From Bryoerythrophyllum caledonicum (taxonomy: Eukaryota > Streptophyta > Bryopsida > Pottiales > Pottiaceae), in contig OZ020526.1 of assembly GCA_963971425.1 (NCBI GenBank), positions 17,761,173-17,825,172 of the forward strand: a DNA stretch of 64,000 nucleotides, read 5' to 3'. Both the position numbers and the translations under genes were made by a program. Under the pieces are notes generated by a model. That model had not been told where the DNA came from, searched no databases, and was given only the letters and a program-made list of their open reading frames with translations. This document shows positions 2,412 through 33,028 of this stretch, piece after piece (the first letter of the stretch is position 1; each line of letters starts with the position of its first letter).

Positions 2412-2610
2412 CAGGATTGCTAGTTTGTGAGCAATGAGCGATGAGCGATGAGCAGTGGGATGTGAGCGATGAGCGATGAGCGATGAACGACGGCCTAGAT
2501 TTTTAGAGAAGCAGGGTGGTTAACCGTGGAAAAATGCCAAAAGAGGAACCTATAACCGTGGAGATATGGACAATTTATAGCCTATTAATCGTGGGAAGTA
2601 GTGAAATTAT
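2412..2610 (+). repeat. Left terminal region of element A
   Basis: About 85 bp of tandem heptads (GTGAGCA/ATGAGCG type, 2425-2490). These are followed by subterminal CTATAACCGTGG-like motifs at about 2520-2600 (three variants). The same two-part end occurs in elements B, D and E. Confidence 0.8.
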
Positions 2611-3171
2611 AGCCTGAATCTTTTTAAAAATTTCAATAAATCCACCTAATAATAATTCATTTTTTACTTGTTTTCAATTTGTTTTCAAATTTGTTTTGAT
2701 TTATATTTTTGAAATCCATATTATGGAATACACATCATTGGAACATTTTTAGAAAAGACTATTTAATTCTTTAAAAACATTAAGGACTTTGAAAGAAGGT
2801 GTGCACTACCAACCGATGCGTATAATAGTAGGCATTTACGATAATCATATTATACGTAAAGAACTAATCAATAGAATGATTGAAAACTCATCCTTGTAGG
2901 CATACCATAATATTAGAGATGAGATCATTTCTCCAAATTACAAGAAATTCTTATTGTTTATCTACAGTCCATAAATTCTACGTATGTCAGTCTGTCCCTT
3001 GGTTTATAGAGGTCTTCAGAATGAAATTCAGTTGTTAAGTAATGTTGTAAAATAGAACATTTACTTTCACATCAAAGAATGCGTGCAATTACAAAGATTC
3101 AAAGAGAAAACACTGAGAGCTCCATTAAAAACAAATCAACGGTTGAAATAGAAGAATTACGAATCCTCCGC
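2611..3171. other. AT-rich internal spacer of element A
   Basis: AT-rich sequence between the left end and the 3' end of the methyltransferase-like gene. It probably includes that gene's 3' UTR. Nothing else seen. Confidence 0.4.
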
Positions 3172-6100
3172 TCAAAACTCATCAGAGTCACACTTGTACA
3201 AATAAGGGGCACCAATATCAGACCCACTATCAGCTGCCTCATCGTCTACAAAATGTCTTGCTGCGGACATACGACGGGCTACACGAACAATTCTTGGAGG
3301 AGATGGTTGTGCTACCATTGCATCAGCAACTGTAGCATCCCATGGAGTCAAATCAAATGAGCGTAGAGGGCTCTTCAGTTCCTCGGAGTGTAGTGATAGC
3401 ACTGCCGCGTGCATTGTTGATTGTGTAGCCATCAACGACGCCGACCGACTAGAAAGACCCAAAGGCACATCATATTTAGAGTTAGGGAAAAAATATAGAA
3501 GTTGTAAACTACCATTCAACAACATGAACATAAGAGGAAGAGGACTTACTTACAAGTTCTCTTTGGAGCGGTCTTCACCTCTAGATCGTCGTCATCCACT
3601 TCGAGGGGGCGTTTGCGAGAGGCTTCTTGCTCTGAAGACGACGGAGTTGAGTCCACCTCCACGGTGCAAGGAATCAAGGGTCGGAGCACCTCCTCAACCA
3701 AAGTCGGATCAGACTCCAAAGCCAAGATGTGGCGCTTTAGGGCTTTGCAAGCCTTGATGGATGCCCCTGTATGAAAAATCAAGTCAATTGGTATTTCTGT
3801 TGAACACCATTATGAAATGCAATTCCATACGAAGTACTAAGAATACTTACCAGTCGACGCTGTCAAGTCCAGGAGAATGTCATCCTCTCGAGTGCACATG
3901 TCAATCAACGCTTGCATGAGGTTGACGGACTTCTCCCGCGCTCCACGCCATGGCTCCATCGTGCCCTTCTTCAACGTCAAAGTGTCCTCCGTTATGAGGT
4001 TGGTCAAGTGACCGTCGGTGGAGAGCTGAATTCCCTCGCGGATGAGTTCCACCCTATCATAGAATGAGAATGGAGCCTCTCCGTCAAACTTCCTCACGAA
4101 GCACTTGGCCATGAAACACTTTTGAGTACGCCCAGGCTGGCCATCGCGAGAGAGTGGGAGGCCGTTGATAATGAACCATTTTGTTTCCTCCACAAGGCCT
4201 GCCCAATCTGCCCAACCCAGAAGTTCATTGGAGATGAACTTTGAGTCTGGATAGAATACAATCAAAGGCGCACCGTCGCGGAGAAGTTCTCCCACCATCT
4301 CAAAACAATTGTGGATGAAGATGGACTCCTTCCTCCCTCTATCATTTAGCCGGGTTGGATGCTCGTTCCAAACTGGAACTGTGGAATCTGCATAAATTCC
4401 AGGGACCGGCAACCCCTCAGGCACGTCGATGATAACCATGTCTACCAAGTCACAGGGCTCACCACGCAAGCAACGGATCTTTGAGCCAGAGTGAGCCTTC
4501 ACAAACTGGAGCAATTCTGTCCAAACTGCTGGGTGGTCACCCTCCTCAGTGATGTTGTTAAAGAGAGGCATGATAGAAAGGGCGCTCTGACACATCACCG
4601 TCACTCCAACCGAAGAATCCCCTTGCTCAATCACTGGGATTGTGTAAACCGTTTGAGAGGGCTTTGCGACATAAGGAGAGGGGCGGCTGCTAGCTGATGG
4701 TGAAATTCCCTACGAAGGAGCAACTTCAGAAGTGCCAATAAATGCTGCCGCACCCCCCAGTTGAGTAAACAACTTTTGTGGGCCTTCCTTTGCCACCAAT
4801 GCCGCAAATTCCTTGTACCTCTCCTTCGTCTCTTTCTTCTCCTTCTTCGCGGTCTCCCTCTGTAGCCTCCTCTCCTCTCGCTCCTGCTCTTTGATCTGCG
4901 CCTTCGCTGCCTTCTCTACAAGCGTTGCCTTTGCCTTCTCTGAGAGCGCAGGATCTTCTGCTATAGCTTCAGGAACAATAGACAGTAGAGCCACGTTGCC
5001 CTCACGAGAAGATAATGTGATCGATTGGCAAGCAACACGGAACTCAACCTCGTCTCCCGGGGTGGAATCGGACTCTCTCATCTCCAAGTACCATGGGCAC
5101 TGTACAAGATGGTGATGCGAGAACCGGCGCTTCTGAGCATCTGTAAAGACACACTCCGATGTAGAGGTGTCCAACCACTTTGTGAAGCGGATGGGCAAAT
5201 CTCCAGCAGCCAAGGCTCCATTTGCAACTAGTACCCTCCAGAAATAACGCATTACTACACGCTTCACAATCTTGTCGCAATGGTCCTGCGCCATAAACTC
5301 CAAGCTCTTTGAGTAAGAGCCACCCTTTCCGATATGGCTGGAGAATACCTTTGTCCATAATGACATGCTCTTTGCCTCAATCCACTTTCCAATGCTTGGA
5401 ATAGGATTTGGAAGCCCGTTTGTTTTGAGGATGATGTTGTCCTCAAGGATTATCTCACCAAAGAGCTTCTCGCTTTCCTCCTCTAGCTGCAACCAATATT
5501 TCAAGTAGTCAAAACATGAGTACACGACATAGTATTTTAAAGAGGACTAGACAAGATTAATTAAAGGAATATACACCAGCAAAGAACGCAGCCTTGTCAA
5601 TCCAACCACGCAGAACAAGGTCCGATGCCGGCGACGTAGGAAAGTTGTACTCCTGTCTACTACCCTTGCTCAAGTTCCACCACCTGCACCAGCGCCCCTT
5701 GAAAGTCGCGGCTACTTTGGCAGTGGCAATTAGCTGGAGCTTCTCCAGTGTCATTTCAGGCTTCCTCTGATACACATCAAAGTGACGGTTCACCTGAAGC
5801 AAAAAGGTTTGCAGTAAGACTTCACACTCATTAAATATAAACTCACCACAGAGAATGCGAACATTGAGGGCCAAAATTGTACCTCTCTAAAGAAATCCTC
5901 TCCGTTGGCCGGATTGGCGATAGCAAGATAACGGTTTAGCTGCGTCTGACACGAGGTCTTCTTCCTTTGCACGGCGTCCGCGCAAAGGCTCACCAATTCA
6001 GTTGTACTACCATGGCGGTCTTCACCAACACCACTGACCAAGTTGTCCTTAAACTTCTGAATCTGCTCTTCTTGGACCGCAATAAGGTCACGCTGGAATG

Positions 6101-7083
6101 AAAATGAAAATCATGGCCAATTAGAAATCCTCGATTTAAAGAAAAGAAATACCAATAATTTTTATTACAAAACAAGGAGTCCTTTACAACATACCTCATA
6201 CATGAGCTTCACAAACGCATCAAGAGTCATGTGATACCACTTCGTTCCTCCCTTCTTTGACCACTCCAGGATGCTGGCTTCATAATCGTCGTCACTAATG
6301 AGGCCCTTCAACTGCTCGAAGTCCAAGAGGCCCAAATGCTGGACTCGCTTCAACTCGTGTGTTAGGTGCTGCGAAACGTGGTCAGTCTCCTTTTGCCTGC
6401 CAAGATGAAAGCATTCAATACATATCAAAGAATGTTAAATATGACAGGAGTTCAACAATTCACATTGCTGAAATACTTTATTGAGATGATTTCAAAATTT
6501 ATACATACCTGTTCCAGTCTGACATTGCGTTGAGCAAGATGTGCCGGTTCTCCAAGCACGGCTCAATAACAAGTGCCCTCACGGGAACATGGAAGTTTGG
6601 GTCTGTGGTGTGCAATTGAGAAATCACCTCACACCATGCCATGTGACGGTGATTGCCATTCCAAACGAAGAAGAACTTGTTAGAGAATGCTGCAAACTCC
6701 GGCCGAGTACTCAAGAGCGCCTCAAACTTCTGGTCTTCTTGCCGCCATAGCGCGGACCATGACTCACGATCTTCGGGAAGGACATTCTTCTCCACCAACG
6801 AGAAACTCTTCAACGATACGTAGAAACACGCGGACCCTGGTCTATACCCCGTGACAAACTCCCCCTTAAGCTTCTCCACATCGCTTCGTAGTGGTGACCG
6901 GACCATAGTCATGGGAATCATCCGACAAAGCGGAATGTGGAGCTCACCGGCCGCGCAACTAATTGAGCTCTGCAAAACGTTGTAAGAGATACCACGAATT
7001 GACCTCCGCTATGACTGCAAAGCTGATGCCAAGCCGGTCTCATCCACAAGATCACTGACGGCCTGGTCGTCGCATGCGGCCAT
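3172..7083 (-). CDS. ParB-like / N4-N6 DNA methyltransferase-like fusion protein (seven exons, two in-frame TAGs)
   Basis: Exon model on minus: 7083-6509, 6396-6195, 6092-5883, 5793-5577, 5482-3851, 3766-3550, 3448-3172. All junctions are GT-AG, the phases are consistent and the total is 3330 nt (1110 codons). Codons about 50-175 resemble a ParB N-terminal domain: IPLCRMIPM, then FFVWNGNHRHMAW (the GxHR/GERR box), then HVPVRALVI. The middle is helical and charged, with a KEKKETKE-rich stretch. The C-terminal part has group-beta methyltransferase order: motif IV position DMVIIDVPEG (about 753), a motif X-like AREKSVNLMQALIDM, then motif I LDLTASTG continuing across the exon 5/6 junction into IKACKALKRHILALESD. 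Motif IV lacks DPPY. In-frame TAGs lie at 7009-7011 and 4710-4712; otherwise the frame is open. The tail is acidic. Element B carries a decayed homologue at 27119-30568. DNA binding or modification is inferred, not shown. Confidence 0.72.
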
Positions 7084-7469
7084 CTACAACAGAACAATGA
7101 TGATCAACATCCTCATCAACACATTTTACACAACAAAATAGAGCAAACAGTTTGATTACAACATAGATGTCACATCAATGATGTTGAATTCTACGTATCA
7201 AGTGTTTGGAATACAAATCAAGATCAATGACAAAGAGGACCGGAACACTCTGCCCATACACCCACATGACCAATGACAACATTTGCCAACGGAGATATGA
7301 GAGTATTATATATGAAATAGACACTATTGATAGAGGATTTAAAATAAAAAACTCAACATTGATAATTTTGATTCCATTCGTTCTTTAATCGGTCACATTT
7401 TCTTGCACAAATCCCGACAAGTAGGCAATTATTAAGAATTTATTTCAAACACCCTCAAATCATCAACAA
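7084..7469. other. Spacer or intron upstream of the ParB exon
   Basis: AT-rich, no coding signal. If the exons at 8288-9888 belong to the same gene, this is part of a long 5' intron. Confidence 0.4.
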
Positions 7470-8199
7470 GACTTTCGGATCCAAAAGTCAGGTGTTGTGT
7501 GAATAATTTTACAAAAACGAAGATGACACCTACTCAACAAGTGGCAAAACTGCAACATTTGATGAACATGACAGTCATTATATCATTGACCAACTAATTC
7601 TCAGAAGCAATTGCAATCTTCAATCACCCCACATTGCCCACAATGCTTATCTCATGTCATTCTTATGGAAAACAACGATGCTGAAAGTTTTTGTTAAAAT
7701 CAGGAAGACAATAATCGAGTTTCGGATCCGAAAGTCTCTTTTGCATCAAAGAAATTTCTAACCATTCATAAATACGGAACCAACTGTAATAGTCACAAAC
7801 AAATTCTTTTCAAAATGAAGAACCGGTGAATGCAGTTTCGGATCCGAAAGTCATAATAAAATTAGATATTTTTACAAACATCATTAATTATTGAACCAAC
7901 ACAAACAGTGACTCAAATGAAATTTTCGAAAATGAGGAACCTAGTGAACTACTTTCGGATCCGAAAGTCACATTTGCAGCAGAGAAGTTTACAACTAACC
8001 CAAATTAATGAACTAACAGAAACAGTGATTCAAAATACTTTTTTTCAAAATGAGGTACTTGTACATCTAGTTTCGGATCCGAAAGTCACATTTTCATCGA
8101 AGAATTTTTTAACTCTCACTCAATAATGAACCATGTGAAACAATGACTCTTAATATTTCTTAAAAGTTTGGAACCTTGCAATCTACTTTCAGATTCAAA
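7470..8199. repeat. Tandem ~117 bp repeats carrying palindrome TTTCGGATCCGAAA
   Basis: The 14 bp palindrome occurs exactly at 7720, 7836, 7953 and 8071, spaced 116-118 bp, with a near copy at 7473 and a degenerate one at 8186. Further near copies sit at 8636 and 8804. The best copies extend to the 20 bp palindrome GACTTTCGGATCCGAAAGTC. The motif is confined to element A in this window. The flanks also repeat, so this is a tandem array and not scattered chance sites. It lies between the divergent element genes. Confidence 0.9.
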
Positions 8200-8287
8200 C
8201 ATCTTCAAAGCAGCATCAAACTTCACCGCACATTGAAGTGCATGAAACAGTTATCCCACTCGGTTTCAAGAAACAGATGTCACACAC

Positions 8288-8567
8288 CTGTGCAGGATCC
8301 GAGGTTGGTGAAGTTGTGCACTGCACGCCTGCAAAGTCGGCACTCAGTGCTTCCTCCTCCATCACCGACGATGCAAAACTTGGGACCTTCAACATCAACA
8401 CCCAGTTTCTATGGTTAAGGGTTTCATGTAATTTATAACAGGTTTGCTGCTAAGGCTCGGTCACTTACATGACGAGGAGACAAGGTCGGTGAAGATGTGC
8501 ACCTCTCGCCTCGCAAGTCGGCATGGCTCGCTCCATCCTCCATCCCTGGTGCTTCAAAATCACGCAC
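8288..8567 (-). CDS. Two duplicated 99-nt exons, likely 5' part of the ParB-methyltransferase gene
   Basis: Exons at 8567-8469 and 8386-8288 are each 99 nt, phase 0, flanked by AG before and GT after. They encode related 33-residue peptides with the shared pattern V..F....ME..A..AD..G..CT.SPT. The pair looks like a tandem exon duplication that copied a neighbouring palindrome too. They sit on the same strand as the ParB gene, between it and a basic first exon at 9888-9541. Membership in that gene is inferred from order, strand and phase; function is unknown. Confidence 0.45.
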
Positions 8568-9540
8568 CTATAAAAACGACAGAAAATATCTCTCATCAGT
8601 AAGGTCGCCGAACAAGGTGATTGAGTTTCGGATCCGAAGGTATCAATTTCAGCAACAAATTCTACAACAATATTAAGTGAATGAGCCATGTGACAGACCC
8701 TCGCAGAATCTGATTTCCGAAAGTAGGTAAAAGATCAGTAAGCTCTAAAATCGGAATCCCTAAACTGAATCTGTTTTACAAAATAGGAACCTCGAATTCT
8801 GACTTTCGGATCCGAAGGGCCTTCCCAAGAATCCCACGCAGCACCTTCTTGCCACGAAACCCTCACAACGCCTCGTGAAGATTGCTTGCGATTCGGCCTG
8901 CCTGTCGAAACCCTAGCTGCACCTCAATACCCTCGCAGCGAGGGGGGCACGTGATTTTTAAAAACAAATTTGGACGGGAGGGAGAATGTGGGATGAATGT
9001 TGGTGTACCGCATGTTTCTCAGTTCAGCAGTTGCTCGTCAGAAAAGTATGGAATGACGGAAAGGTAATGACTATGGATCATATCCTAAAAACCCATCTAA
9101 TTAAAAAATAAAGCAATTTTTCCTATAGAAATTTTGGCAAATTTTACTAAATTTAGTACATTTTTCCCGGGGCCCTACAATCCCCCCGGGGAGTCGTCGA
9201 GACAGTAATGGTTGATAACACAAAAGAATCTGAATTCAAAAGCTTCAGAATCTAGGGTATTTTGGCTAACATGCTTCTTTTGCAATCAAGTTAAATTTTC
9301 CTATTCAAATGAATTTGGAATACAATGCTATTTATGTAGAATACCATGACCACCAATGAGTCCTTCTGAAGTCTAATTTTAACTCCGCATCCTCTACCAT
9401 CCCATCTCCATCCATACTAGTCACAAATTGTCTCTATTTCCTACATATTCATAAAATCATGCCTATCTCTTTCAGAATTATGTTAAAAGTACAACAAGCA
9501 TAGCACTTTAAAAACAAAAACATGTAACTGGAGCACTTAC
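8568..9540. other. Intron-like stretch of element A
   Basis: Between the 99-nt exon and the basic first exon. It holds two more near copies of the TTTCGGATCCGAA palindrome (8636, 8804) and a GC-rich CCCGGGG inverted pair at about 9169-9200. No gene supported. Confidence 0.4.
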
Positions 9541-9888
9541 CTGTGATGCTATTCTTGATTCTCTTCCTTCATCATGTGCTCCATCTTCCACTAACTCCAC
9601 ACTTGCTGTACTATTGGCACTCTTTCCCTTCCCTCTACCTCTTCCACGTTTCTGAAATTTTCCTCTAACACTTTCTAGTGGACCCGTCTATGAAGGCTGC
9701 ATATCTCTATCAAAGTCTGGAGTACATGTTACTTTATCAATACCCTCGTACCGTCTACCTGACCTCATCTTCGACTGACGTAAAATCTTTCTCGAGGAGA
9801 ACCTAAATGCACTCTTCCTAACCCTTCTTCGAGCAGGTGCCACTCGAGACTGAGGTTCCTGCATTGGTGTGTGGAACAAGCTAGACAT
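9541..9888 (-). CDS. Basic first exon (Arg-rich), candidate start of the ParB-methyltransferase gene
   Basis: An ATG at 9886-9888 opens a 348 nt, phase-0 exon ending in a strong donor (CAG then GTAAGT at 9540). The product is Arg/Lys-rich in its first half and has KRGRGRGKGK followed by an acidic stretch, like a nuclear-localised DNA-binding tail. One in-frame TAG lies at 9688-9690. It diverges from the transposase start 610 bp away. It may be exon 1 of the ParB-methyltransferase gene or a separate small gene; I cannot decide without transcripts. Confidence 0.4.
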
Positions 9889-10497
9889 CACAATCCAACC
9901 ATCTCCCCATAACTATCCCCTCTCACTTCCTTAGTCCACTACCCGCCCAGCAATAAACTATATTTAAATTACCAGCCTACTATTACCTGTACTCATATTT
10001 TCAAAATGTGAGTACAGGTAATAGGCGGCGCCTCCTCCAAGAAAAGCATATCTTTAATGTCAACTTTCTAAGATTGAGATGTAGCCTGACAACCTACACT
10101 CTGACACTTTTGACGACATCTTTCAAATTATGTAGACTCTATAACATAGCTCTTCCAAACATAACATTTAAAAATCCTGAGAGTTACTTTCCAACTCACA
10201 TCCACCTCAACAAACTCGGATGTGTACTAATAACTCCATCCTTGCGACGGCCACCTGCTTTAGTACATCTAATTTGCACTACAATCCGCCGCCTAAACCT
10301 TGAACCACGTTCTCCTAAAAGATCCATCATTGTTTTTTTTAATTTTCTTTTGTCACATTCTTCACACCGCTCAATGTCACTCTCTAAACTGAATTAGAAC
10401 TCCACTACCAACATATACACCACCATCGCTCGTAGCATTCAGTAACTTGTTAGCAATTTTTACGAATCTTCTTTGCCCCATTGCATTGTCCTTAGAG
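9889..10497. promoter_or_regulatory. Divergent intergenic region of element A
   Basis: 610 bp between the candidate first exon on minus and the transposase ATG on plus. It should hold both promoters. No TATA box or defined element could be assigned with confidence. Confidence 0.35.
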
Positions 10498-13400
10498 ATG
10501 GCTACACTTAGCACTGAAGGAGCAAAGCATCTAATTCGACATCCACTAGGACCTAACGGTCTTGCCATAGTTCCTTCCGTATACCTAGCAGTCCGTTTTG
10601 GTTTCCAGGAAGAGTCTATCTATGTTGAGAAGGAGGTTCTCAATGTGGACGGAAATGTTCAATACACCGTCACTCAGCTCAGTTCCCTAGTTAATGGTCA
10701 GAAGACATGGTCCTTGGAGGAGGGTACTTACAAAGTCTTTGGTTTGTCTCAAATGCAGATGCAGGCATCCACGCACCTGTTGACGCCCGGGAAGTTCACA
10801 ACGTCTAGCATCCACGCCCCACTTTGCACTCCAGCAACTAGCGTAGCCGACATCCCCCCGCCCTTGAAGCAACATCAGGCGCACTCTCCAATCTTCATTG
10901 ACGACAGCGATGATGACTTCCGCGTGGAGGACATCACTGCCTCCACTCCCACCTCTTTTCGCACCCCGCCGCCATCCACGTTCGACGAGCACCGGCAACC
11001 CCCAACACCGTCTTCCGCTGCACGACCTCCCCTACATCCTCAAACATTGGGACGTACAAGTGTTGTTGCGTGCTTGAAGAGCTTGGCGTCTAGACCAAGT
11101 ACGAAGAATGTGCTGTAGAATATGAACTATGCTTCAGTGCCACATCGGACAGTTGACTTCCTACCCTCCATGTACGATGGTGATGTCATCTTTGAGTTGC
11201 CACCCGTTGCTGCTGGTGCCAATTCGTCCAAGGCCAAGAACTTGCAGGGTATGGACAAGAAGCACGATGGCCATTGTTGGTGCCTCACAAAGACCTCCAA
11301 CATCTCAAATGACATGGGCCTTACCTTCCGGAGATCCTCATGTGCTGGCCATCTCAAGTGCGGAAATCTGGATTGCGATTACCTAAAACGACCGAATCGT
11401 GAAGACCCCTACAATGAAAAGGAGTGGGAAGGGACAACTCCCATTCCCTTCGTGCCGGGGAGGGAAGACCCTCCGAAACTGTCCACCGTATGTTGCAAGG
11501 TATGCAAGACTCCACCTAAGGCCATTGCTACATGTGACGCTATTATTTACTATGTCATTGGACCACCGGGTATGACCCGAGCTTGTGTGCACTTGGGCGT
11601 CCATAATCACCCCGTTGCATTTGGCGTCTGCCGCGAGTCTGAGAATACTATCATTTCCTTGATCGGCGAGCAAGTGGAGCGCACTCCGTCCGCAACAAAT
11701 TCCTCCATTGCCATGGCTGCAAGTAAGGAGTTCCTTGCGAAGCATCTCCTCCGTCCACAACAGTGCGATACGACCATGACTGTGGAGGACATGAAGACCG
11801 TTATGGAGAAGTACGCCAACCTCGCCTCTCCAAACATCAAGAATGCTATATCAAACTTCAAGCACGTCGGGCGCACTAATCCCATGGACGGCATCCGCCA
11901 GATGAGAGGATGTACGACCTGGCCCTTTGTCCAACGAAATATGTTTCCGGGACAAGGCGCTGACAACGACAAAGTCTTCGTCTTTAAGATGAGTGAGGTA
12001 GGACCTGGCTCCGGTGTTGACCTTGTCACTAGAATGCAGCCAGGAGGAGACTTGCAAGATTCTTGGCTCATGTTTGACCACGTCAAGCGCGTCAATAATT
12101 GGACCACTATGGCGTGCCATGTCTATGATTCACACTATTGTAGGGTGATGACTATTGCAGTATGTGATATGCAATCTGAGGATTGTGAGGCCCAATGTGT
12201 CATGTGGAAGTGCCTCAACGAAGTCATGGCTAGGCATGGGCTCATGATTGTCAACTTCAAGGGATTCATGGCGGATAGCGCTGGTGCCAATTGGAATGTT
12301 GTTCGCAAGATCTATGGAACCGGAGATCCACACAAGGAGATGCCTAATCGTGAGCGCACATGCCTCCTTCATTGGACCACCTCCATGAACCGCCATACAG
12401 ACAATCATATCAAGAGTGAGTTCCAAGAACAACATCGTCTCCTATGCAAGCAATATAAAAATTCGAAGACCTCCGCCGAGGCTGAGGTTCGATACCTTGA
12501 AATTCGGGCATGGTGGCAATCGTGTGGAGCCGTAGACGATACAGCACTCAAGCAGCTTGACCAGTGGCTTGCTTTCTGGCATTATCGCTACCGGCAATGG
12601 GGAGCCTCCATGCAGCTGGTAAGTCATTCTTTCGCCTAGTACATTGTCCTGTGGACTCACTTGTTTGTGCTAGCAATCAATGTTGGCTAAATTCCTGGAT
12701 GTCTTTTCCAGGACCTCACGGATGAAGAGCGTGCTGAAATGCCCTCCTGCAACTTGTCGGAGACCGTCCATAACCGTTGGCTTCAACAGTCTGGCAATAG
12801 GGGGAACGATTTGTACGACGCTACAATGGACGACTTCGTACGTGCATTCATGCAGTGCACAAACTACTACAAATTTCTAAAGGGTGGGCGGCCCGGAACT
12901 GGGCCTTCAAAACAAGAGTTGAGGCTACGCCAAGCCCAGCAATCGGGCAGACTAGATAAAGTTGTTGACGCAATGGAGACGATGGCAGAGGGGAAGGAAT
13001 GGTGCACCCGTACCCCACATTTTGAGGGTGAGGAGGTCTTCGAGTCTACCGCACGCAAGCTAGACCTCCCTCTTGGATCTGAGTTTGATAGTCACCGCTC
13101 AGACAAGATGAACTTCTCCCGTCCCAAGGTCCAGACGAGAACAAGGAAGGGCCGCCGTGAGAGTGCTCCACCAGCAATTGATTTATCTCCCCCTTCTTCA
13201 CCTACTTCTTCTAACGACGTTCGCATTTTGTCTCCACCAGCATCAGCATCCAATGTTGTAAGTGCACAGGTGAAGCATGTGACTAGTGTCCAAGAATCTG
13301 ACTGCGATGTGAGGCAATGGCACATTGCCCGACTCCTAAAGACTTCCAAGAAGAAATGCTTTGCCAAACAAGCACGAACTGGAAGAACTTGTTCAGAGAT

Positions 13401-14924: not shown

Positions 14925-14994
14925 CTCGTTGCTCATGAAATGACCGCTCATCGCTCATTGCTCATCGCTCACAGCTCACAAACTAGCGTCGTTG
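14825..14994 (-). repeat. Right terminal region of element A
   Basis: Inverted match to the left end: CGCTCATTGCTCATCGCTCAC heptads end in CTAGCGTCGTTG at 14994. A subterminal CCACGGTTATAGG lies at about 14840. Together with the left end this defines the terminal inverted repeat pair. Confidence 0.85.
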
Positions 14995-18465: not shown

Positions 18466-18475
18466 TCTTTCCTAG

Positions 18476-22200: not shown

Positions 22201-23160
22201 GGTCAGAACGTGGATGAAATGGAGTTGAGGCAGTACCCTCCCACTCAGTTTCATTTGTTGGTGAGGTCCGGTTCAGACGCTTTAGGTAGTCACATGAATC
22301 ATTTGTACACTAGAGGTGGCCCAAACAGGCAGACATCTTAAATGTGAGGTGGAACTCCGATTTGATGTGCGATGTGATAGTTCGAGTCCACGCGTGGTCG
22401 TCGTCTCGCTTATCCATTCCATGAAGTTGCCCAGCCTTGGATGACAATGGGTACTTGCCCATCGGCGAAAGTTCAAAAATGACATCGCCATCAAATTTGG
22501 GGGGAAGAAAATCTTCTTTCCGAATTGATATTGAGTTATAATCTAACTCACTGTGAGCTGACTTTGCTCCCCATCTGGCACCAAGAAGGCGGAGGCATCG
22601 GACAATACTGTCTACAGGAGGAAGTGGGGGTTTTGAAGTGGTCGGACCAATACAAGGAGATGGGGAGGACTCAAGATTCAGAGAGGCGGACTTAGACTGG
22701 GGAAGAGTAGAAAGAGGGATTACAGGGAGGCATTTACAGTCAGAGTCGTCACTAAGGATGAAGACAGGATCATCAGGAGGCTCAAGTTTTACCTTCTGCA
22801 ACAGCGGAGTAACAACCGTTCCAGTGGTTGACCGTCTTGGTGTTAACGTATCCGCAGACACCTTGGAAGGACGGTCTTTGGTTCCATACACTCTATAATT
22901 CCCCGACTGCAATTTCCAGTAGTCACCACTATCAGAAGGAAACGAAATCTATGCTTCAGTGTGAGAGTTCTTTCGTGATCGGATCGACTACATCCTTGTC
23001 AATATGCAAACTGCCATCTAAGATGTGGAATCGAGCAGCTAAACGACTTCCAGTAACAATGGAGAAGCCATCCTCTCCGACTACAAACGAAATGGGCACG
23101 GCAAATCCACTCCCGTGAATCAGAACAGGTTGGGACTCGGCATCCAACAGGGACGCCATG
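19266..23160 (-). pseudogene. Decayed MULE transposase of element B
   Basis: Homologous along its length to the element A transposase but spread over several frames. From ATG near 23160 it shows the N-terminal MASL peptide, a zinc region with MSACLGHL and HLGIHSH, a core with GFMAESAQANW where A has GFMADSAGANW, the third catalytic Glu in NLAESIHN (about 20650), and a SWIM finger CDC...YCKH near 19390-19465. Lesions include frameshifts near 22930, 21800 and 20060 and a TAG just before the SWIM finger. The intron donor reads ATAAGT where A has GTAAGT (about 21085), while the acceptor is intact. The second catalytic Asp position reads Glu. It cannot encode an active enzyme. Confidence 0.75.
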
Positions 23161-23556
23161 CAAAACAAATCGAAAGCAGAGGAATAGGAAATAAATCTCG
23201 AGCAAAGAATGGTGGAGGCAATGGGGAACTATGTCTGAACATCTGAAGGCATTGTTAAATTATTTTTATCTTCTATCAAACATATTTGCACGCCGTAATG
23301 GACAAAGTGAGGTAGGTACCAGAAACAGTAATGTCATTCAAATACGCCGTCAATAGAAGACGAGAATTAAAGTTAAAATGGAATTGGTTGTTGAATAGGC
23401 ATTACTGTTTTCTTACTAACAAATGTAGCAGTGATCAATATAATACAGACTGTCCGGTAGGAGCTTAATGTTTACGGTGACAATAATAGCGGAGCCCACA
23501 GAAAAAATCACAAATGGAGTACCTGTCAGAGCAAGATAATGAGCCCCTTGAATGTC
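23161..23556. other. Upstream region of element B transposase
   Basis: Non-coding, between the transposase start and a short inserted element. No motif assigned. Confidence 0.35.
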
Positions 23557-23560
23557 TTAA

Positions 23561-24102
23561 CCCCTAAAGGACCAAGCGTCTATAAATTTTTCAATTTATA
23601 TTTTTTCCACAACAATATGTGGTGTAAAACTTTGTACAGAGCATTTGGATTATCAATATAAAATATATTAAATTCACAACAAAATAAAGTGTGAATTAAC
23701 AAATTTTGAACCTCCACTCCATGCGCAATTGTTTTCAATATGCTTCACTTACCCTCTACCTCTAAAAATTGGTGTTAAAGGAAATGACATCATGCTTAAC
23801 AAGATGGTAATAGATGAAGACCTTGTAGTGCAAGAAACTGACACAAAGTGAAGTCACAGTTTGCTGATCCACTAAACGCAGGGAAGATAATGAACCATAT
23901 GCTTCACTTCAAACACTATAATTTTTCAATCCGTGCGGTCAAAGTTTATGAAGTTTGGTTGATATATTAATTCATAAATCTTAATCGAGTTTTTACGGTT
24001 AGAACTGAAAATCAAAGTGTTTGTATCCTTCTATGTTAATTGCAACAGAATCTAACATTTTTAAAGTGTTTGTGGTGTAAAATTGTCACGGTACCTTAGC
24101 GG
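23561..24102 (-). mobile_element. piggyBac-like short element, copy 2 (inverted)
   Basis: Starts CCCCTAAAGGACC after TTAA (23557-23560) and ends with a degenerate GGTACCTTAGCGG before TTAA (24103-24106). Its inside matches the other two copies in reverse, for example CCACAACAATATGTGGTGTAAA at about 23619. It is non-autonomous at about 540 bp. Confidence 0.65.
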
Positions 24103-24261
24103 TTAAATCAACAGGTAACCGCCGATTTTGTCATCATGCCCTCTGATCTAGATACTATAATATTTAATAACATACAAGATTGGCGGCCAACCAAACTTTC
24201 ATAAACAAGCAACTAGGTATCTGAAACTATCCATAAATGAGATTTAGTTGTAATGGAGTGC
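24103..24261. other. Element B spacer
   Basis: Short non-coding stretch between the piggyBac-like element and the tandem repeat. Confidence 0.3.
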
Positions 24262-24520
24262 CGAGCATGGTTGAGCGCTGTGAATGAGTTGCGGATGACG
24301 GCAGTGGTAAACGTTTTTTTTGGGTTAGAGCATCACTTTAGGGCGTCAGGAAAAACCGTACCTAGATGAACGCTATGAAAGGGTTGCCGATGTCGACAGG
24401 CGAAAACGTTTTTTTTTTGTTAAAGCTTCACTTTAGGGCGTCAGGAAGAACCGTACCTGGTTGAGCGCTGTAAATGGGCTGCCGATATCGGCAATGGTGA
24501 ACGACGATTTTTTCTTAGTG
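24262..24520. repeat. ~97 bp tandem repeat with TTGCCGATATCGGCA-type palindromes
   Basis: About two and a half units sharing GGTTGAGCGCTGT...CGTTTTTTTT...CACTTTAGGGCGTCAGGAA.AACCGTACCT. Each contains one version of the palindrome: TTGCGGATGACGGCA (24289), TTGCCGATGTCGACA (24384) and TGCCGATATCGGCA (24480). Other copies of GCCGA(T/C)ATCGGC lie at 25519, 25668, 26519, 26753 and 28147, all inside element B. Confidence 0.85.
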
Positions 24521-25610
24521 ACAGCATGACTTGAGCAGCTTGACTGGAGCATGACTTGAGCTTGACGGTAGTATGCTAATGGCGCAATGCGCGCCAAGTA
24601 TCGAAAGGGGATCGGGTCAATATTCCCAAATCGGGACGTGGCAGTGGGCGGTGACTGAATACCGAGACTCCCCTGGATGAGTTCTCTTTTCTTTTAAAAA
24701 GCCTGTCCACCCTGGAATCGGTTCACCCGGAGATAGGGTCCAGCGGTGTCAGCTGAAGCTGTCGATGCTAAAGGAATCCCGATGTGGATGTTGGTGTAAG
24801 GTCACGGTCATGTTGCAGGTGCTATGGTGTGATTCAGGTTGGAATGTGAGGTCGAGGTTCAAGTATCATCGCATCACCAGCCTGGTGCAAATGTAAACTT
24901 CATGTTGTTATCCTGATTTCCTCCCTCGCGACTGTGGGGTCAAATGGGGCATGCATCAGGATGTCGGCATTTCCAAGTCTCATAATCTCGATGCACACCC
25001 TTTGACCTTTCAATGAGAAAACTCAGAACAAGGGGGCCGTCAACGTTGTGACGTACGTAAAATTGTAGTACACAGTTGAGGGCTTGAACTGCCATTTTGT
25101 TGTCGGATATATTATTGACCTGTTCATGGACGCGCTCTTCCGTGACGACAAATCACGGAGCTTGCGGAGAGAACATTCGCCTGACCAGGCTACCAATACA
25201 GCTCTCACCATCTCTGGATAAGGACGTCTCACTCCACAATTTCGCACCCTTTCGTGGATCATATTCCAAGACACCGATGGTGCGTGAAGTTTTCTGGGGT
25301 AATGCACTGATCATGCAGTATGAAGTATTGCTGGCGTTCGGCATCGCTTTGGTATCCCTCATGCTAGGTTTGCACTGGCCGCTAATGAGCGGTGGCACCG
25401 CCTAGGCATCATGGCGCTCGTGCTGATGCAGGTTTGGAGTGGCCGCTGATGAGGGCTGTCATTGATGAAGCTGGAGCCTATCCAGCTGGTGTTCTCGTTG
25501 GGATACTTACATGGCATCGCCGACATCGGCAGACCTCGGGACCTCGGGACCTCACGACCTCGCTGGGTACTCCGGACCTCGATACCTCGGGACCTCGCTG
25601 TGTCCACTAG
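24521..25610. other. Element B internal region, no gene assigned
   Basis: GC-richer than its surroundings but with no supported coding frame. It contains a palindrome copy at 25519-25530 and a run of GACCTCGGGAC repeats at about 25530-25600. It may be a 5' intron or promoter region of the decayed plus-strand gene. Confidence 0.4.
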
Positions 25611-25611
25611 C

Positions 25612-26612
25612 ATAGCATCGCATACATCGACAGACTATGTGGAGTGAAGATGCACTCGCATCGCTTCGCCGACATCGGCAGACCTATTGACTCGCATGAC
25701 AATGACGTGCATCGTCAGACATATTTACTTGCATGGCATTGACTTATTGACTCTTCGGGAACTTCGCGCAGCCGATGACAAGCTCGTTCGTTCGATGAAG
25801 GCTCACTGGATCGCGGTAGTTTAGGGTTTAGGGTCTCTGGTGCAGTTGTCCTCTTCATTCTCTTGTACAATGTTTGTCGGTGTGCTTGTTTAACAGGTCT
25901 AGAAAGTGTTGTGTTCTGGTTTTGATTAAGGGTCTCTTTTTCTGAATTGACGAGATCCTTTCACGATGTTGCTTATGAACCTTTTGGTACTGAGGATGAT
26001 ATCAGTGAGGATTTGTTGAGGTTTTGCTGGTCTCTGTTGGGAATGTTCTCGTTTTTTTTTACAACGTTTGTGGGTGTGCTTGTTTAACCAGATCTAGAAA
26101 GCGTTCGTGTCTGAATTGAGTCATTCAGCTTTTTGTACACGATCTGTCCATCGGATCTTTAATTCGTGGTGATCGTCAGTTTGGTAGAGATGAGAGTCAT
26201 GCAGTACCAGTGTTGCTAGTCAATCAGGTCGAAGAATTCGGTAGTTTAAGCGATAATTACTGTTAAAACATGCCATCAGAAAGTCGAACTGATTCTCCAA
26301 TTCTTGGTCCAGGTGTGCATCCAATACTTGTTCTTGCTACTAACTTATATCATCGGCTTCAGCCTGCACTGCCAAGAATGCTGTAAGAAAAACTAGGTAG
26401 AAGTCCTCGAACTAGAATTAATCATGAAGATGCAGAATGTGAGGCATGATTCTTTCCGCGCAGGTGAATCGCATACATCGGCAGACTATGTGGAGTGAGG
26501 ATGCACTCGCATCGCTTCGCCGACATCGGCAGACCTATTGACTCGCATGACAATGACGTGCATCGTCAGACATATTTTCTTGCATGGCATTGACTTATTG
26601 ACACTTCGGGTA
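25612..26612 (+). repeat. Direct repeats with palindromes in element B
   Basis: A unit of about 145 bp at 25612-25760 is repeated with few changes at 26466-26612. Both start at CGCATACATCG.CAGACTATG and include CGCCGACATCGGCAGACC. A second direct repeat, around GTGTGCTTGTTTAAC, lies at about 25880 and 26075. No coding frame is supported between them. Confidence 0.8.
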
Positions 26613-27118
26613 CTCGGGACCTCGTTGGGTCCACTAGTATGGCATCTATGGGTCCACATGCATCGCTGGGCCCACTAGCAGGCAGCTACGTATTGACTCA
26701 GTTGTGCGGAGACCTCGGGTGATATGCCCAGACCTCGGGTGGCAGTATCATCGCCGATATCGGCATTAGTTGTGTCTCCACAGGATTGAGCCTGGTTGAA
26801 CGAATGCACGGCATGTTAAATTGAACCAGATCTATGAGTCGTTGGTTAAATTGATTACTCTGCAGCTCTTGCTCATTGGCCACTTTTTTTATTTTGTGGT
26901 TTTATGCTCTTAACGTGCGATTGATCTAAGAAGGCCTACTTTGTTGCTTCTACACAGCGGTGGATTCAGCGAAAGTAGGACTTGTTGATTCAATGGTGGA
27001 TCACTAAGAGTCACCTCAGCCTCATATTGGAGTACCTGGTAAGTATTGTTTTTGTCTTGTCTTCATGATTTTTTGATGAATAATATCCTAATTGAAGAAA
27101 TTGAGATGAGGACTTTGA
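26613..27118. other. Upstream region of the element B ParB-methyltransferase remnant
   Basis: Contains a palindrome at 26753-26764 and a possible donor (CCTG then GTAAGT near 27030). No further support for an exon. Confidence 0.4.
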
Positions 27119-30100
27119 CAATGAGGGAGACGAGGACATGCAAGATCATGATTCTATGCCCCTGGAAGACGAAAGTCAATATTTGACAGCCATGTCTGTA
27201 GAAGAACTTGGCAAGAAGATGGATGCCTTGGTGGTTAAGGAGTCTGTGAACACAAATATTGTATTGGATAAGCTTCGTTTAAAGCCACGGAGCAAGTCCA
27301 AGTTAAATATTTCCTTGTGTCGCATGCTTCCGCTAGCTGCTATAAGGCCATATCTTAAGAACGATGTAATGGCATTATGTGCTCACTTCGTAAGTACAGG
27401 TTACATGGATGGCCATGGCGTTTATTACGTGGCCTGTAATTTGAGGCTTGTAATAACTATTGTCAGTATTAAAAAATTTACTAGAACCAGGTCCTGATTT
27501 GGAGTTGTTATGAAAGAAAGGAAGAATTTGGAAACTTTTTCTTTCAAATAGTGTCAAATACTTACAATTCTCTGAATCTGCAGGAGGAATCAGAATTGCC
27601 AGGTGAAAATGAACCTAGTGCATAAGCTATACCGCATCCAGGGAATTGCCGGTCAGCCACTCTAGTACTTCGAGAATCTTGTTTCAGAGGAGGAACTCAA
27701 TGACGCTGAGAAGAAACAATTGTCGAAGAACCATGGTTGGTACACTCTTACGATGGACGGCCTCATTTCAGTTCTTTACCAGGTACAAAACGAAATTCAT
27801 TTAACTGTTCAATTCGTGGACTGTGTTAAACCTTGAGCCACTTACGAGAATATGTTCTGTTGGCAATTGGCAATTGTTCATCACAATGTAGAACTGTGAT
27901 GCTAACTACATTGTGAAGCTTGTTATATAGCATCTGATACATTGTTTTTAATGATCTCATTTCAATATGAGATAGGCAACAAGTTTAGGCAGCACTTATG
28001 TTCTTATGGCATGGGCATCACTTATGAGATGGGCAACACTTAAGGACAGCTTTTATGTTTTAATGTTTCAATATGAGATGAGCAGCACTAAATGGGCAGC
28101 ACATGTGTTTATATAGGTGTACCATTCTAGAACTATAAATTGGGTTGCCGATATCGGCACCCTTACTGCTCGCTCCTTAATTTCTCTTCATCATCAAACC
28201 TGCTAGTGACGGATAGTTGAAGTAGGGTTCTCATTTGTTTTGTTAATAGTGCTAAATGCCTGCTGTGGACGTGCCTAGAAATTTTTTTGCCCTTGCATGT
28301 GTATCATATTTCATACTACGATATTTAAATATATTATCATGATTGACCTTTGCTTCATTGTTTTCAGCAAGAGCTTGGAGATGTTGTGGCCCATGCCACA
28401 ACGAAATTCAAAGAAAAATATCCGGAGAAATCAAGTGAGTGGACAATTGGTAAGCTGCACGAGGAAATAGGAAAAGCCGTGGATAAGGTGAAGAGAGAGA
28501 CCTCTTCTGAATTGAAGAAGCAACTTCCAATTGCTGATCCAAAGCATATCCCACAGTTCCTGGAGCAAGTTAGAAGGCATTACGAAAAGCGAGAGGACCA
28601 TCCAGAAATGTCTCAGGAGAAGTTGTGGTACCTTACAACGTCTGCAATGGAACCGGCTGTGAAGGTGAAGTGGCTTGAGCGCTGGAACTTGCCAGCTTCA
28701 CTTCGGGATGTTGTGCGGTTTCCAAGGAGCAAATTTGCTTACCACGCGTTCCCCGTAAAAAATGGATGTTGACATTGACGTCCTTCAGGTGATACCAGAG
28801 TCAACTCCTGTTATCACTTCCACAGTGGCCCCTGTCAATTCAGTAACTGCAGTTGAGGGCGGAATCCGGATCAAGCTTAATCTCCATACTTTTGTAGAAG
28901 CTGAAGGGGAAGGTGGCATCTAGAAGATCATTGTCTACCTCCAATATGTCCCAAGAAGCGTCAGTTCTTGTCGAAAACACTAGTCTTCTGAAAATTTTGA
29001 AGGTCCTGCCCGAGATTCATCCTTCTCTGCTGAACCTGAGCAACTTTGTCCTTAAAGTAAAACTCTCCCCTTATTTCTCTTCGTTTTTTCCTCTTCTGCA
29101 CTTTCCTTCAATCAACTGTTTCTTCTCATTGAATTGTGTTGATTTAGTGTCCTCTGATTTCTCAATGTTGTTGATCCAAGGCAAGCATTTCTTGGGCATT
29201 TATGGTATATTATCTCTCGATTTCTGCTTCTGCTTGTAAGTCCCTGCTTGCTTGTCCCTTGTTTTAACACTATACTCCGTCATTTTTACATTATTCAAAT
29301 GAAGAAGGAATCTGGAAGTGCCGCACTCTCGACTCATTGCCCTCATAGCGGGTTCGACCTGATAATAGGTGATCTGAAGGATGGCATGATGGTTCCTGGC
29401 ATTTCAATGAGCCCCACTGACGTTCCAAATTGGAACGAATACTCAGTGCACGATACAAAGAGTTTATTTGAGTTTGCTGAGTACTTCCTTCATAGTGAGG
29501 GTGGGCTGCTTCTTTTTGTCCCTGACGTCTTAAGCATTCGATGCGACGTCCTCTCATACGCCGAAGGTTACAGTTTTCAGCTATTTCGAGAGTGGTGGAG
29601 AATTAACGACCTCCCATCTTCCTCCCTTCTCAGCCCCGGACTTAAGGTATAATGTTCAATTTTTCACCTTCATTGTCCAATTCTGCTTGCAACCGACTTT
29701 GATTCTACCCTCACCTAACATCGACTATTCTTTGATTCTACCCTCACAGAGTAGAAGGTTTCGAATTCAGCTCTTCATTCACAGTAAGTTGTCCCTGGAC
29801 CGCTTCTCTATTGCAGTAAATGAAGATCTTGCCGAGGTCGGTTTAGGGGTTGTGGAATCAAATGTGCTCTTCAATTTCACAACCGCCCAGTCCAATCAAT
29901 TAATCACGCAGTCCCATGGAGGGGCGCTCGTGAGTAGGATGCGGTTTTCCTACAGATGATCATTGAGGCTTTCACCAAACCGGAGTCTATGGTTCTCGAT
30001 GCATTCGCCTCTATTGGTATGTTTCCTCTTGTTGTTGCCTTGTATTTCACAAAGTACTAGATCTAATTTTTGTCATGCAACTTCAGGAAACTCCATTCTA

Positions 30101-30568
30101 GCTTGCAAGTCAGCCAGCCGCCACATTGTGGCCTTGGAGGAGGACGCTATTGTCTTCAATGCGAAGCTCATCCATTTTTCTTTGGCTCGACCGACACCTC
30201 AACTTTCTCCTTCAATTCCGCAGGTGCCACTGATTGTCGACACCGACGTTCCCATCCGCAAAGTGACGAAGAAAAAAAGATTGAGTAAGTAAGTTTCAAA
30301 CTCTGAATTCTACTCCAATGCCATCCTTACTTGATCATTTTACTCATCTGCGTGTGGCTTTGCTAGACTGATGGCAGCGATTCTCTCGCCGAAGAAGGTC
30401 TTTGCCATGGCTCCATGGGATGCTAAGGTAGCACAGGGACAAGCGGCAGCATGGTCTCCAAGTTCCTCTTCGCGAGTTCCACATTGTTTCAATAGAGGGG
30501 TGCGTAGATACATTGACGATGAAGCTGAAGTTCGGAACCCTACAGTCACTTCATCCTCTGAGAGTTGA
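27119..30568 (+). pseudogene. Decayed ParB-methyltransferase gene of element B
   Basis: Pieces align in order with the gene of element A. An acidic N-terminus leads to LNISLCRMLPLAAIRP (about 27300-27430), matching the ParB start. The GNHR box is missing, apparently deleted before the exon at about 27606-27782 (GWYTLTMDGLISVLYQ). Then come exons at about 28368-28771 and 28913-29058, the motif IV region DLIIGDLKDGMMVPGI (about 29356-29405), and DAFASIG at 29997-30017 joining across an intron to NSILACKSASRHIVALEED, which is methyltransferase motif I. The final exon ends in an acidic DDEA tail like A and stops at TGA 30566-30568. Frame changes, a TAG in the second exon and the ParB deletion make it a pseudogene. 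Motif IV again lacks DPPY. Confidence 0.7.
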
Positions 30569-30943
30569 CGCCAATTGTAGTTTCTTCTATGAACTTTTCC
30601 CCCACTCCTTGAAACCTGAGTCAAAGTTCAGTTCCCCCTTTTCGAGCTATCGTTTGCATTTGGTACAGACATTGAAGCTTCCATATCCACTAATCCTAAA
30701 CCCTAAATAGAACTGGATACAATTTACTTCATTGTCTTGATTATCAATTGTATTTTCAAAATGCTTCCTGTAGTGTCCAATTTTTTTTGTCAAGAATACA
30801 ATCAAAGCTAAAATCCACAATACTATATAGCCTCTCTAGGACCCAATCAATTTTTGCCTTCCACCCCTACACCTCATGTACCATCCTTCGACAACATACA
30901 TCAGTATGGGTTCTCCATCAGATACTTACTTACGTTCCCTTAA
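30569..30943. other. Spacer in element B
   Basis: Non-coding stretch between the gene remnant and the inserted piggyBac-like element; likely holds the 3' UTR. Confidence 0.35.
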
Positions 30944-31874
30944 TCCCTAAAGGACCACGACCACTTTCGCACTAAAACCAGTCCAAAACTGTGACTGCCA
31001 AAAAGAGACATGAAAATCACATTCTAAAGTGAATTTTGGATTTTGAACCGTAAGATCTTAAAATAGACTTCAATTTAAACATGCCGCAAACTTTTGGTTG
31101 CAATCCACCGAACGGATAGATAGATTTTAGTGTTCAAAGTCAAAACAATGGTTATTTTCTTCCTTGCGTTGAGTAGATCAACAGACTTTTAGTTCACTTT
31201 GTATCAATTTTTTGCAGTGTACAAGGTCTAAATCTCTTACCATTGTCTTAAGCATGATGTTATTTCCCAAAACACCAATTTTTAGAGGTAAAAATAGGGT
31301 GTAGCATATTCAAAACAAGTGTGGAAGGAGTGGAGGTTCAAAAATTGCCATTACACTTAAAAAAAAATTTAACTACGTATGTATTCGAATGATAATCCAA
31401 ATGGTCAATAAGAAGGTTTTCACCACATATTGTTGATGAACAAATTAAAAGTGAAAAATATGAAGATCTATAGGTTTTATGTAGAAAAGATTAATTTTTT
31501 TCCCCCTTTGCCCGACAATGTGTGAAAATGTTTGACTTGGAATATAATGCCTTTTTACACTAAAGAGAAGATTTTTTTTGAATATTTCCAAAGAAGAAAA
31601 TATTCTTTATATGTGTGAAATACTTCAATGTCAATAGAAACTTTTGTCAAAAATGTTGGAGGTGCCCAGAGTCCCCACTATTGGCTTTAAGTGGTACTAA
31701 CTTTCAAACCGGAAATCCAAAAAATAAATTAAAAACCTCCATGAATGGAATTCGTGAAATCTTTATCACATGCTATCTTTTGAAAAAAATTCAATTCAAA
31801 AGGATTTTTTTCCGAATTGTAGGTACATGCCCAAAATCTAATTGACCTCGGGGGGACGTTTAGTCCTTTAGGGG
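30944..31874 (+). mobile_element. piggyBac-like short element, copy 3 (complete)
   Basis: 931 bp between two TTAA sites (30940-30943, 31875-31878). The ends are TCCCTAAAGGACC and, inverted, CCCCTAAAGGACT. Body sequence matches copies 1 and 2. No transposase. This copy gives the best definition of both ends of the family. Confidence 0.75.
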
Positions 31875-31878
31875 TTAA

Positions 31879-32719
31879 GTACCTTTTCTCACTTTTCTTT
31901 GTCAGGACAACAATCCCTTCACTATTTGGGAGGTCTTAAAGAAGTTTTTGAGTTATCTTTAATCTCTACCAGAAAGAAATAAATGAAGGAAGCCTTTGAG
32001 AAATTTGAAGTCCATATTTACGCTTACACAACATACACATGCATGTAAAATCATATCCTAATTTATGGTTGTGAAACTCATGCAATACCGAGGAATACAA
32101 ATGATTACCCCTGAATAACAGTGAAATACTATGTGTTGCATGTCTTATGCTTTATTGGCTCCATTCATATACAACAGATTTATGCTCTGAAATTCTGATG
32201 GAGACCTGTCTTCGGATGAGATTGCAATTTGGTTCTCATATTTGCTATCTCTTTCATAGCGTACAAGACTTTTGTTTTAGGACATTTCCTTTTGGCACTT
32301 GACCTAGTAAACGATTAATTTATCTCTGGAAATTAGTTATTACTTTGTATACAATATGTCATTGTAAAACTGTGTATATAGCTTATTATTTGACTTGTAA
32401 TTTAATAGTAACAAATCATTGGTATATTTTCTTCTTACATGAGCACAGTAACCTCTCAATTCCACATTTTCTACTATGTAAACAAGGTATCTTTAACCAT
32501 TATTATCTATATCCTATAGTATTGCATGTTTTGCAGATATTATGCAAAATTTAGGTATTATGTTAAATAGTAAATATTATTTTGTAAAGTCATGCGATAT
32601 AATTAGGCATAACATTTCATTGAACGCTGGTATAGTGAATACATCAACCAAAATACTGGTTTCAAATAAATTTGATGTGGAAAATTAGGGTTGATAATGC
32701 AACATCACTTATTGAGGGG
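31879..32719. other. AT-rich stretch of element B
   Basis: About 840 bp, very AT-rich, no coding frame or repeat family recognised. Confidence 0.5.
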
Positions 32720-33028
32720 TGTTTTTGCAATCCACGGCCATAGGATTCCTACATCCCTTCCCAAGCTCATTACATGCTCTCTTCTCAAACAGTACCTCCC
32801 TAGATAGAATGGAATACATTACCAAAAAAAACACAAAAGTTCTTGGAACCCACGGCTATAGGGCCTCTACTGTCAACTCTGGTGAGAATTTTCAATTTTT
32901 CATTTGTTTTATTTTCAACTTTATCACTTTGTTTTCCCAAAAAATCCCCAACTTCAATGCTCTAGGCTCACCGCTCACCGCTCACCGCTCACTGCTCACC
33001 GCTCTAGGCACGCAAAATAGCTTCGTCC
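32720..33028 (-). repeat. Right terminal region of element B
   Basis: Subterminal CCACGGCCATAGG (about 32737) and CCACGGCTATAGG (about 32850), then GCTCACCGCTCACCGCTCAC heptads (32966-33003) and the end motif GGCACGCAAAATAGC. Inverted match to 18476 onward. Confidence 0.8.

Follow-up and report, generated by a model that had tools for sequence, protein, structure and literature searches.

The window analysed here, 64,000 nucleotides of contig OZ020526.1 of Bryoerythrophyllum caledonicum (positions 17,761,173 to 17,825,172), contains two Mutator-like elements (MULEs), A and B, each of which carries a transposase gene and, on the opposite strand, a second gene, here called gene 2. The predicted product of gene 2 combines an N-terminal part that is probably ParB-like with a part resembling the beta-class amino-methyltransferases. 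Family A carries gene 2 as a standing component, further lineages have it too, and the elements contain arrays of palindromes that differ from lineage to lineage. We regard it as an evenly balanced proposition that the product of this accessory gene recognises its own element and counters silencing, in convergence with the VANC proteins of Arabidopsis.

Elements A and B and their divergent gene pair

Element A (2412..14994; 12,583 bp) starts at 2412 with CAGGATTGCTAGTTTGTGAGC and finishes at 14994 with GCTCACAAACTAGCGTCGTTG; it is enclosed by a perfect 10-bp target duplication, GGGGCGGAGA, at 2402-2411 and 14995-15004. Its limits are defined by the ends shared with its siblings and by the siblings' own duplications. 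The source genome (437 Mb, 894 contigs) was searched for copies of the family, and ten siblings of A were retrieved and aligned. Over aligned bases, they share 99.3-99.5% identity with the window copy; the right end is present in all ten and the left end in nine (boundaries by eye). Eight siblings have a 9-10 bp duplication of their own, namely six exact 10-mers, one of 9 bp, and one 10-mer with one mismatch; of the remaining two, one has no duplication and the other no recognisable left end. In the ungapped columns of the 11 copies, each copy shows 17 to 41 private changes, and the burst of family A is therefore recent.

Element B (18476..33028; 14,553 bp) is a decayed element, flanked by a 10-bp target duplication with one mismatch (TCTTTCCTAG at 18466-18475, TCCTTCCTAG at 33029-33038). 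A first-pass annotation of this DNA had described A and B as separate insertions, each with its own ends and duplication, and this description holds for both. A third element, C (46281..48575), is a gene-less derivative with A-type ends and an exact 10-bp duplication, GTTGCATAAC. Duplications of 8-11 bp, the length taken as a MULE criterion, thus surround A, B, C, and eight of the ten A siblings. The ends are further marked by arrays of 7-bp GTGAGCG-like units. In A these are found at 2427..2481 (left end, plus strand) and 14946..14979 (right end, minus strand); further terminal arrays lie at 18505-18524, 32966-33006, 46296-46343, 48542-48561, and 63477-63510. Across the terminal arrays of these elements, the unit has 27 matches versus 0.85 expected. 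A fourth element, of B-type, has its left end at about 63462 and extends beyond the window (63462-64000).

The transposase gene of A (10498..14169, plus strand; exons 10498-12618 and 12712-14169) has 1192 codons and contains blocks of the DDE type as well as, at the C-terminus, a SWIM-like motif (CxC...CxH). Two further lineages of the source genome have both genes, A2 (one copy, C7:1104984-1121034) and A3 (three copies, two of them degraded). An alignment by eye of the transposases of A, A2, A3, and B identifies the D blocks, the C..H, and the E block as Mutator-type DDE, and the SWIM-like CxC...CxH was found, again by eye, in A, A2, and A3; the SWIM-finger MULE transposase proposed in the first-pass annotation was thus recovered. 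None of the Pfam Mutator/MULE models matched the scanned pieces of the A transposase, and the sole such match of an A3 transposase piece was PF00872 with E 0.049, short of its cut-off. For exon 1, the comparison of A and A2 gave a ratio of nonsynonymous to synonymous substitutions (dN/dS) of 0.13 at dS 1.4.

Gene 2 of A (3172..9888, minus strand), which encodes the ParB-like and the methyltransferase-like part, was modelled by hand with ten exons: 9888-9541, 8567-8469, 8386-8288, 7083-6509, 6396-6195, 6092-5883, 5793-5575, 5486-3851, 3766-3550, and 3448-3172. Each of the nine introns is GT-AG. The first three exons are tentative; the last seven are matched exon for exon by L032 (CADCWO010000058.1), the single contig found by an alignment search of bacterial and archaeal genomes with the ParB-like part. 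Its record title names an uncultured Synechococcales cyanobacterium. From the ParB-like exon onward, gene 2 of L032 consists of seven exons with 1136 codons, no internal stop, and six introns at the same positions as in A, for which reason we take the contig to be probably a eukaryotic contamination of a metagenome bin. On their own, the MULE type, the introns, and the name of this bin, which probably denotes a desert soil crust, would suggest a plant, perhaps a moss, as host. In element B, a translated search against A located remnants of both genes, the transposase at 19299..22918 (minus strand; 44-62% identity over aligned pieces) and gene 2 at 27105..30570 (plus strand; 24-43% identity over aligned pieces). 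The latter retains the methyltransferase-like part; its ParB-like exon is incomplete. This confirms for A and B the divergent pair of transposase and second gene that had been annotated in both elements.

The two genes also occur together throughout family A. Searches with the main exons detected at least 21 near-identical copies of the A transposase and at least 22 of the A gene 2; these are lower bounds, as the best 40 of 1154 transposase candidates and the best 40 of 434 gene-2 candidates were scored. In 20 of the 21 listed transposase copies, gene 2 lies on the opposite strand at a distance of 5.3-5.8 kb; for the last one, it is found 28.5 kb away, likewise on the opposite strand. Together with the presence of both genes in A2, A3, and B, this fixed spacing bears out the earlier statement that the second gene is a standing component and not a chance capture, and the check proposed there, on copies with matched ends, showed that gene 2 is generally retained in family A.

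The window copy of A is broken: its transposase contains two premature stops and its gene 2 three, one of which is inside a tentative exon. All five are TAG. A changed code, with TAG read as glutamine, was considered for this reason and ruled out, since all five stops are absent in all ten siblings. The transposase is open over 1192 codons in nine of the ten siblings; gene 2, read from the exon-4 start, runs uninterrupted to its stop in three, and in a fourth it lacks only the stop. Consequently, intact copies of both genes exist in family A. Gene 2 and transposase may have decayed unequally, or selection on single gene-2 copies may be weaker; the sample is small.

Constraint is also evident at larger distances. 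The proteins deduced from gene 2 of L032 and of an A sibling are 62.7% identical over 1111 codons, with dS 2.0, dN 0.28, and dN/dS 0.14, a ratio that is approximate because dS is near saturation. In this set of pairwise comparisons, one segment ('middle') was out of frame and was left out. In the protein database, searches at E <=0.01 gave 86 relatives for the methyltransferase-like part and 72 for the ParB-like part, many of them fragmentary. As judged from these comparisons, gene 2 is old and has been kept by purifying selection.

The two parts of gene 2

The methyltransferase-like domain (3550..4709, limits approximate, minus strand) has the motif order IV ... X-I-II, with D-V-P-E replacing DPPY. 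P0001 matches the Pfam family PF01555 with E 0.01; the same family is matched by 8 of 29 aligned relatives (best E 4.7e-4) and by their consensus (E 1.7e-5, slightly short of the curated cut-off). In an hhalign comparison with CcrM, the sequence of which was entered by hand, the profile of the 29 relatives aligned collinearly over 189 columns (E 4e-6). The score was 51.4, as compared with at most 22.5 for 30 shuffles of CcrM. In this alignment, the DPPYNL of CcrM is paired with D-V-P-E-N-L of gene 2.

The catalytic site is legible by pattern in 51 of 87 relatives; 39 of the 51 have D-(V/I/L/M)-P-E. Among the 51 legible of the 87 relatives searched, DPP was found at this position in none, and the criterion pattern (D/N/S)PP(Y/F/W) was not recovered. 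In known enzymes, the aromatic residue of DPPY holds the flipped base; gene 2 has an acid at this position. By eye, motif I deviates from its usual form as well. Fold and motif order of a beta-class amino-methyltransferase are thus well supported by sequence comparison, and the replacement of DPPY by D-x-P-E makes an ordinary N6-methyladenine (6mA) or N4-methylcytosine (4mC) activity of gene 2 doubtful. The first-pass annotation had called this domain group-beta DNA-methyltransferase-like: the fold withstood the comparisons with PF01555 and CcrM, the catalytic DPPY did not, and only the qualified label, methyltransferase-like, is retained.

The N-terminal part is less readily classified. Its most characteristic exon (6509..7083, minus strand) contains a GNHRxxAW box within the conserved pattern IPLCRM..MP.VRP.L..DV..L...F..GY......YV ... 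FFVWDGNHR..AW ... V.SV.LD, on the basis of which we consider it probably a ParB/sulfiredoxin domain, a label that is not firm. A sulfiredoxin sequence scored 24.1 against the ParB-like profile, compared to at most 17.8 in 30 shuffles, with 40 columns aligned around the GxHR box. Two results speak against the label: no ParB model was matched in the Pfam scans of relatives and consensus, and Spo0J scored below shuffles against the same profile. The Pfam scans gave PF06245 (DUF1015) in 2 of 29 and PF20188 (DUF6551) in 1 of 29 relatives, with E >=0.14 and below chance matches of the same list; DUF1015 is presumably a member of the ParB clan. No NCBIfam model matched the ParB-like consensus. The ParB-like domain that had been proposed is accordingly suggested by the GNHR box and left without backing by Pfam and Spo0J. 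As seen by eye, the region that contains the GNHR box is missing from the ParB-like exon of element B; apparent B-type relatives in the database (P0100, P0101, P0105) have the box.

Searches of wider collections added little. Among phages, the methyltransferase-like sequence P0011 matched at no more than three places, with E 2-3, and the ParB-like sequence P0091 at none; no relatives of either part of gene 2 were found in viral contigs. The PHROGs collection returned weak matches only, the top one being a DNA methyltransferase family with E 0.14. A sequence search of solved structures was set aside: it gave no methyltransferase or ParB match, and its best scores (for the ParB-like profile, eL24 with E 0.005; further RPN2 with 0.05 and PRMT1 with 0.06) look like chance.

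Palindrome arrays and a possible reader

Arrays of lineage-specific palindromes are present in the noncoding DNA of every gene-2 lineage read, as well as in element C. In A, seven sites of the form (C/G)TTTCGGATCCGAAAG, some with 1-2 mismatches, occupy 7472..8818, within the introns at the 5' end of gene 2, which lie between the two genes. B has eight sites within two mismatches of TGCCGATATCGGCA (20842..28159), and C nine within two mismatches of CTCGGTACCGAG. The palindromes of the other lineages are TTGTTGGATCCAACAA in A2, CTTCGGATCCGAAG in A3, and GGTCTCGGATCCGAGACC in L032. With 1 to 4 mismatches allowed, depending on length, the counts are 7 for A, 20 for A2, 9 for A3, 8 for B, 9 for C, and 4 for L032; 100 shuffles of each gave at most two. 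No palindrome site occurs in 28 kb taken from the remainder of the window. The A siblings contain 5 to 7 instances of the 12-bp core of the palindrome. Most sites are located mid-element and in introns, away from the ends with their 7-bp arrays. A comparison of sites and surroundings in A, A2, and B (duplicate units of A2 excluded) yielded a likeness of 85-92% for the sites, as against 26-43% for their flanks.

The comparison of lineages links these palindromes to gene 2. Between A and A2, the transposases are 72% identical and the ParB-like exons 38%; between A and A3, the corresponding values are 45% and 70%. The palindrome is almost identical in A and A3 and different in A2. Judged from these few lineages, gene 2 and the transposase appear to have separate histories, with the palindrome going with gene 2. 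Such tracking is the pattern expected of a reader and its site.

In the mechanism that we propose, the N-terminal ParB/sulfiredoxin-like part, probably dimeric, would bind those palindromes that belong to its lineage, much as ParB recognises parS. There, the methyltransferase-like part would act as a binder of DNA, of S-adenosylmethionine (SAM), or of a host methylation enzyme, and not as an ordinary 6mA/4mC enzyme. The element DNA would thereby be marked or kept unsilenced, which would allow expression of the transposase. The most specific form of this proposal is parS-like self-recognition of a transposon in a plant, in which a ParB-like dimer would read the palindromes, a rebuilt methyltransferase fold would do epigenetic work, and reader and sites would pass jointly from one transposase lineage to another, independently of the transposase; to this form we give tentative credence, a little short of an even chance.

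A number of observations weigh against self-recognition by means of the palindromes. Element C retains just a 43-residue remnant of the transposase, so derivatives without gene 2 occur, and the gene-2 copy C1:132361 has no transposase neighbour among the matches listed. As gene 2 is open in 3 of 10 siblings compared with 9 of 10 for the transposase, single copies need no gene 2 in cis. With regard to the palindromes, the sites that were compared with their flanks had been selected for similarity, so that their identity is overestimated; the flanks in C are 56-64% alike, and the consensus for the site counts was chosen on the same sequence in which the sites were counted. Moreover, tandem copies contain all nine sites of A3, three of those of A2, and about four of those of A, which are thus not independent, and two older A3 copies retain three sites each within two mismatches, one of them perfect in either copy. 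There are cross-matches: the consensus of C occurs at three places in L032 and that of A2 at two in A. Finally, the association of palindrome and gene 2 was read from three lineages, A, A2, and A3.

Gene 2 could instead encode an active methyltransferase, which writes 6mA or 4mC on its own palindromes as a permissive mark. The beta-class motif order and the recognisable SAM region would suit an active enzyme, several palindromes include GATC or GATATC, and the authors of a study on Ectocarpus propose that proteins of this kind modify their own transposon (PMC12477816). A paper on 6mA across eukaryotes gave no passage on land plants when its text was searched. We nevertheless consider this unlikely, given the atypical motif I and a catalytic position that reads D-x-P-E in 39 of 51 legible relatives and DPP in none. 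For maize mudrB, the role of a transposition cofactor has been proposed. If gene 2 were a cofactor of this type, involved in end pairing, integration, or target choice, the palindromes would be assembly or enhancer sites; the fixation of the divergent pair in family A, its presence in other lineages, and the retention of ends plus palindromes in the gene-less derivative C would agree with this. However, most sites are central or intronic while the ends carry their separate 7-bp arrays, and the methyltransferase fold would be left unexplained, which makes a cofactor role somewhat less likely still.

The palindromes might also be dynamic tandem repeats or transcription signals unrelated to gene 2. 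Tandem units exist, with lengths of 117 bp in A, 126 bp in A3, and 233 bp in A2, and the number of sites varies among the A siblings. Yet the flanks around the sites are unlike in A, A2, and B, each lineage has perfect palindromes, which goes beyond mere repeats, and the site changes with gene 2; we therefore view this explanation as improbable, slightly more so than a cofactor role. That gene 2 is a pseudogene, or was captured by chance from the host or from bacteria, could be suspected from the two broken copies in the window, and is in practice refuted by the fixed spacing in 20 of 21 copies, the occurrence in several lineages, the intact relatives, and the dN/dS of about 0.14; its probability is very small.

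Further open frames and apparent gene fragments lie in the remainder of the window. A protein-kinase-like open frame (Pkinase E 2e-6) lies on the minus strand at 583-2169, and the region between A and B (15146-17476) has open frames, one of which shows a RING-like cysteine pattern by eye. Also by eye, 33534-35824 has the appearance of a fragmented BED/hAT-type transposase, 43567-44465 of a part of a SET-domain gene, and 62000-63469 of the RNase H end of a retroelement.

Comparison with known systems

Proteins of the same general type have been described in algae. According to PMC12477816, the Ectocarpus element Sola1-1_Ec32 encodes, on the strand opposite the transposase, a ParB-like plus amino-methyltransferase-like protein of 1104 residues, and cases from green and red algal transposons are cited there as well. 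Gene 2, with 1111 residues from the start of exon 4, is likewise a two-domain gene opposite a transposase (the ParB label being probable); the likeness is one of description, and the algal element belongs to the Sola1 superfamily, whereas the elements described here are MULEs. A palindrome array is not described for the algal element in the passages of that paper considered here (PMC12477816). For MULEs, a survey across eukaryotes lists accessory open reading frames and domains, and the term 'methyl' is absent from the passages of its main text considered here (PMC6446971). Among the titles and abstracts listed by the literature searches, which left subscription journals mostly aside, none reported a further MULE with a ParB-methyltransferase protein, and the literature searched gave no report of element-borne palindromes of such a kind. 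The first-pass annotation knew of no ParB-methyltransferase in a plant MULE; this stands for MULEs in the literature searched, while the protein type itself is already published for algal transposons (PMC12477816). What is new here is the MULE superfamily, the altered catalytic loop, the palindromes, and probably the host group.

With CcrM, gene 2 shares the collinear alignment of its methyltransferase-like part over 189 columns; it differs in the exchange of DPPYN for D-x-P-E-(N/G) and in the fusion to a ParB-like part. The replacement of the catalytic loop within a methyltransferase fold, and its conservation thereafter, is of interest in itself. Bacterial parS consists of palindromic sites in arrays, and the elements with gene 2 combine a ParB-like box with arrayed palindromes. 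In contrast to the ParB-parS system, they are eukaryotic transposons, and Spo0J did not exceed shuffles; a ParA partner was not noticed in the elements, with no search aimed at ParA having been made. Beyond the algal transposons, ParB-methyltransferase proteins would now be represented in a MULE, together with a candidate target.

To our knowledge, only a handful of transposon proteins, VANC among them, overcome host silencing through recognition of the element that encodes them. Gene 2 would add another protein type with apparent sites. Since its copies are recent and in part intact, the specificity between protein and site and the change of this specificity over time can be tested together. 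VANC of the Arabidopsis VANDAL elements exerts anti-silencing via short motifs, intronic or intergenic, that vary among related elements (PMC5735166). Both are MULE accessory genes associated with repeated, lineage-specific motifs in intronic or intergenic positions; the VANC motif is YAGTATTAY (PMC5735166), whereas perfect palindromes are found here. By analogy, VANC is the closest working parallel to gene 2, one that appears to have been reached here with other protein domains.

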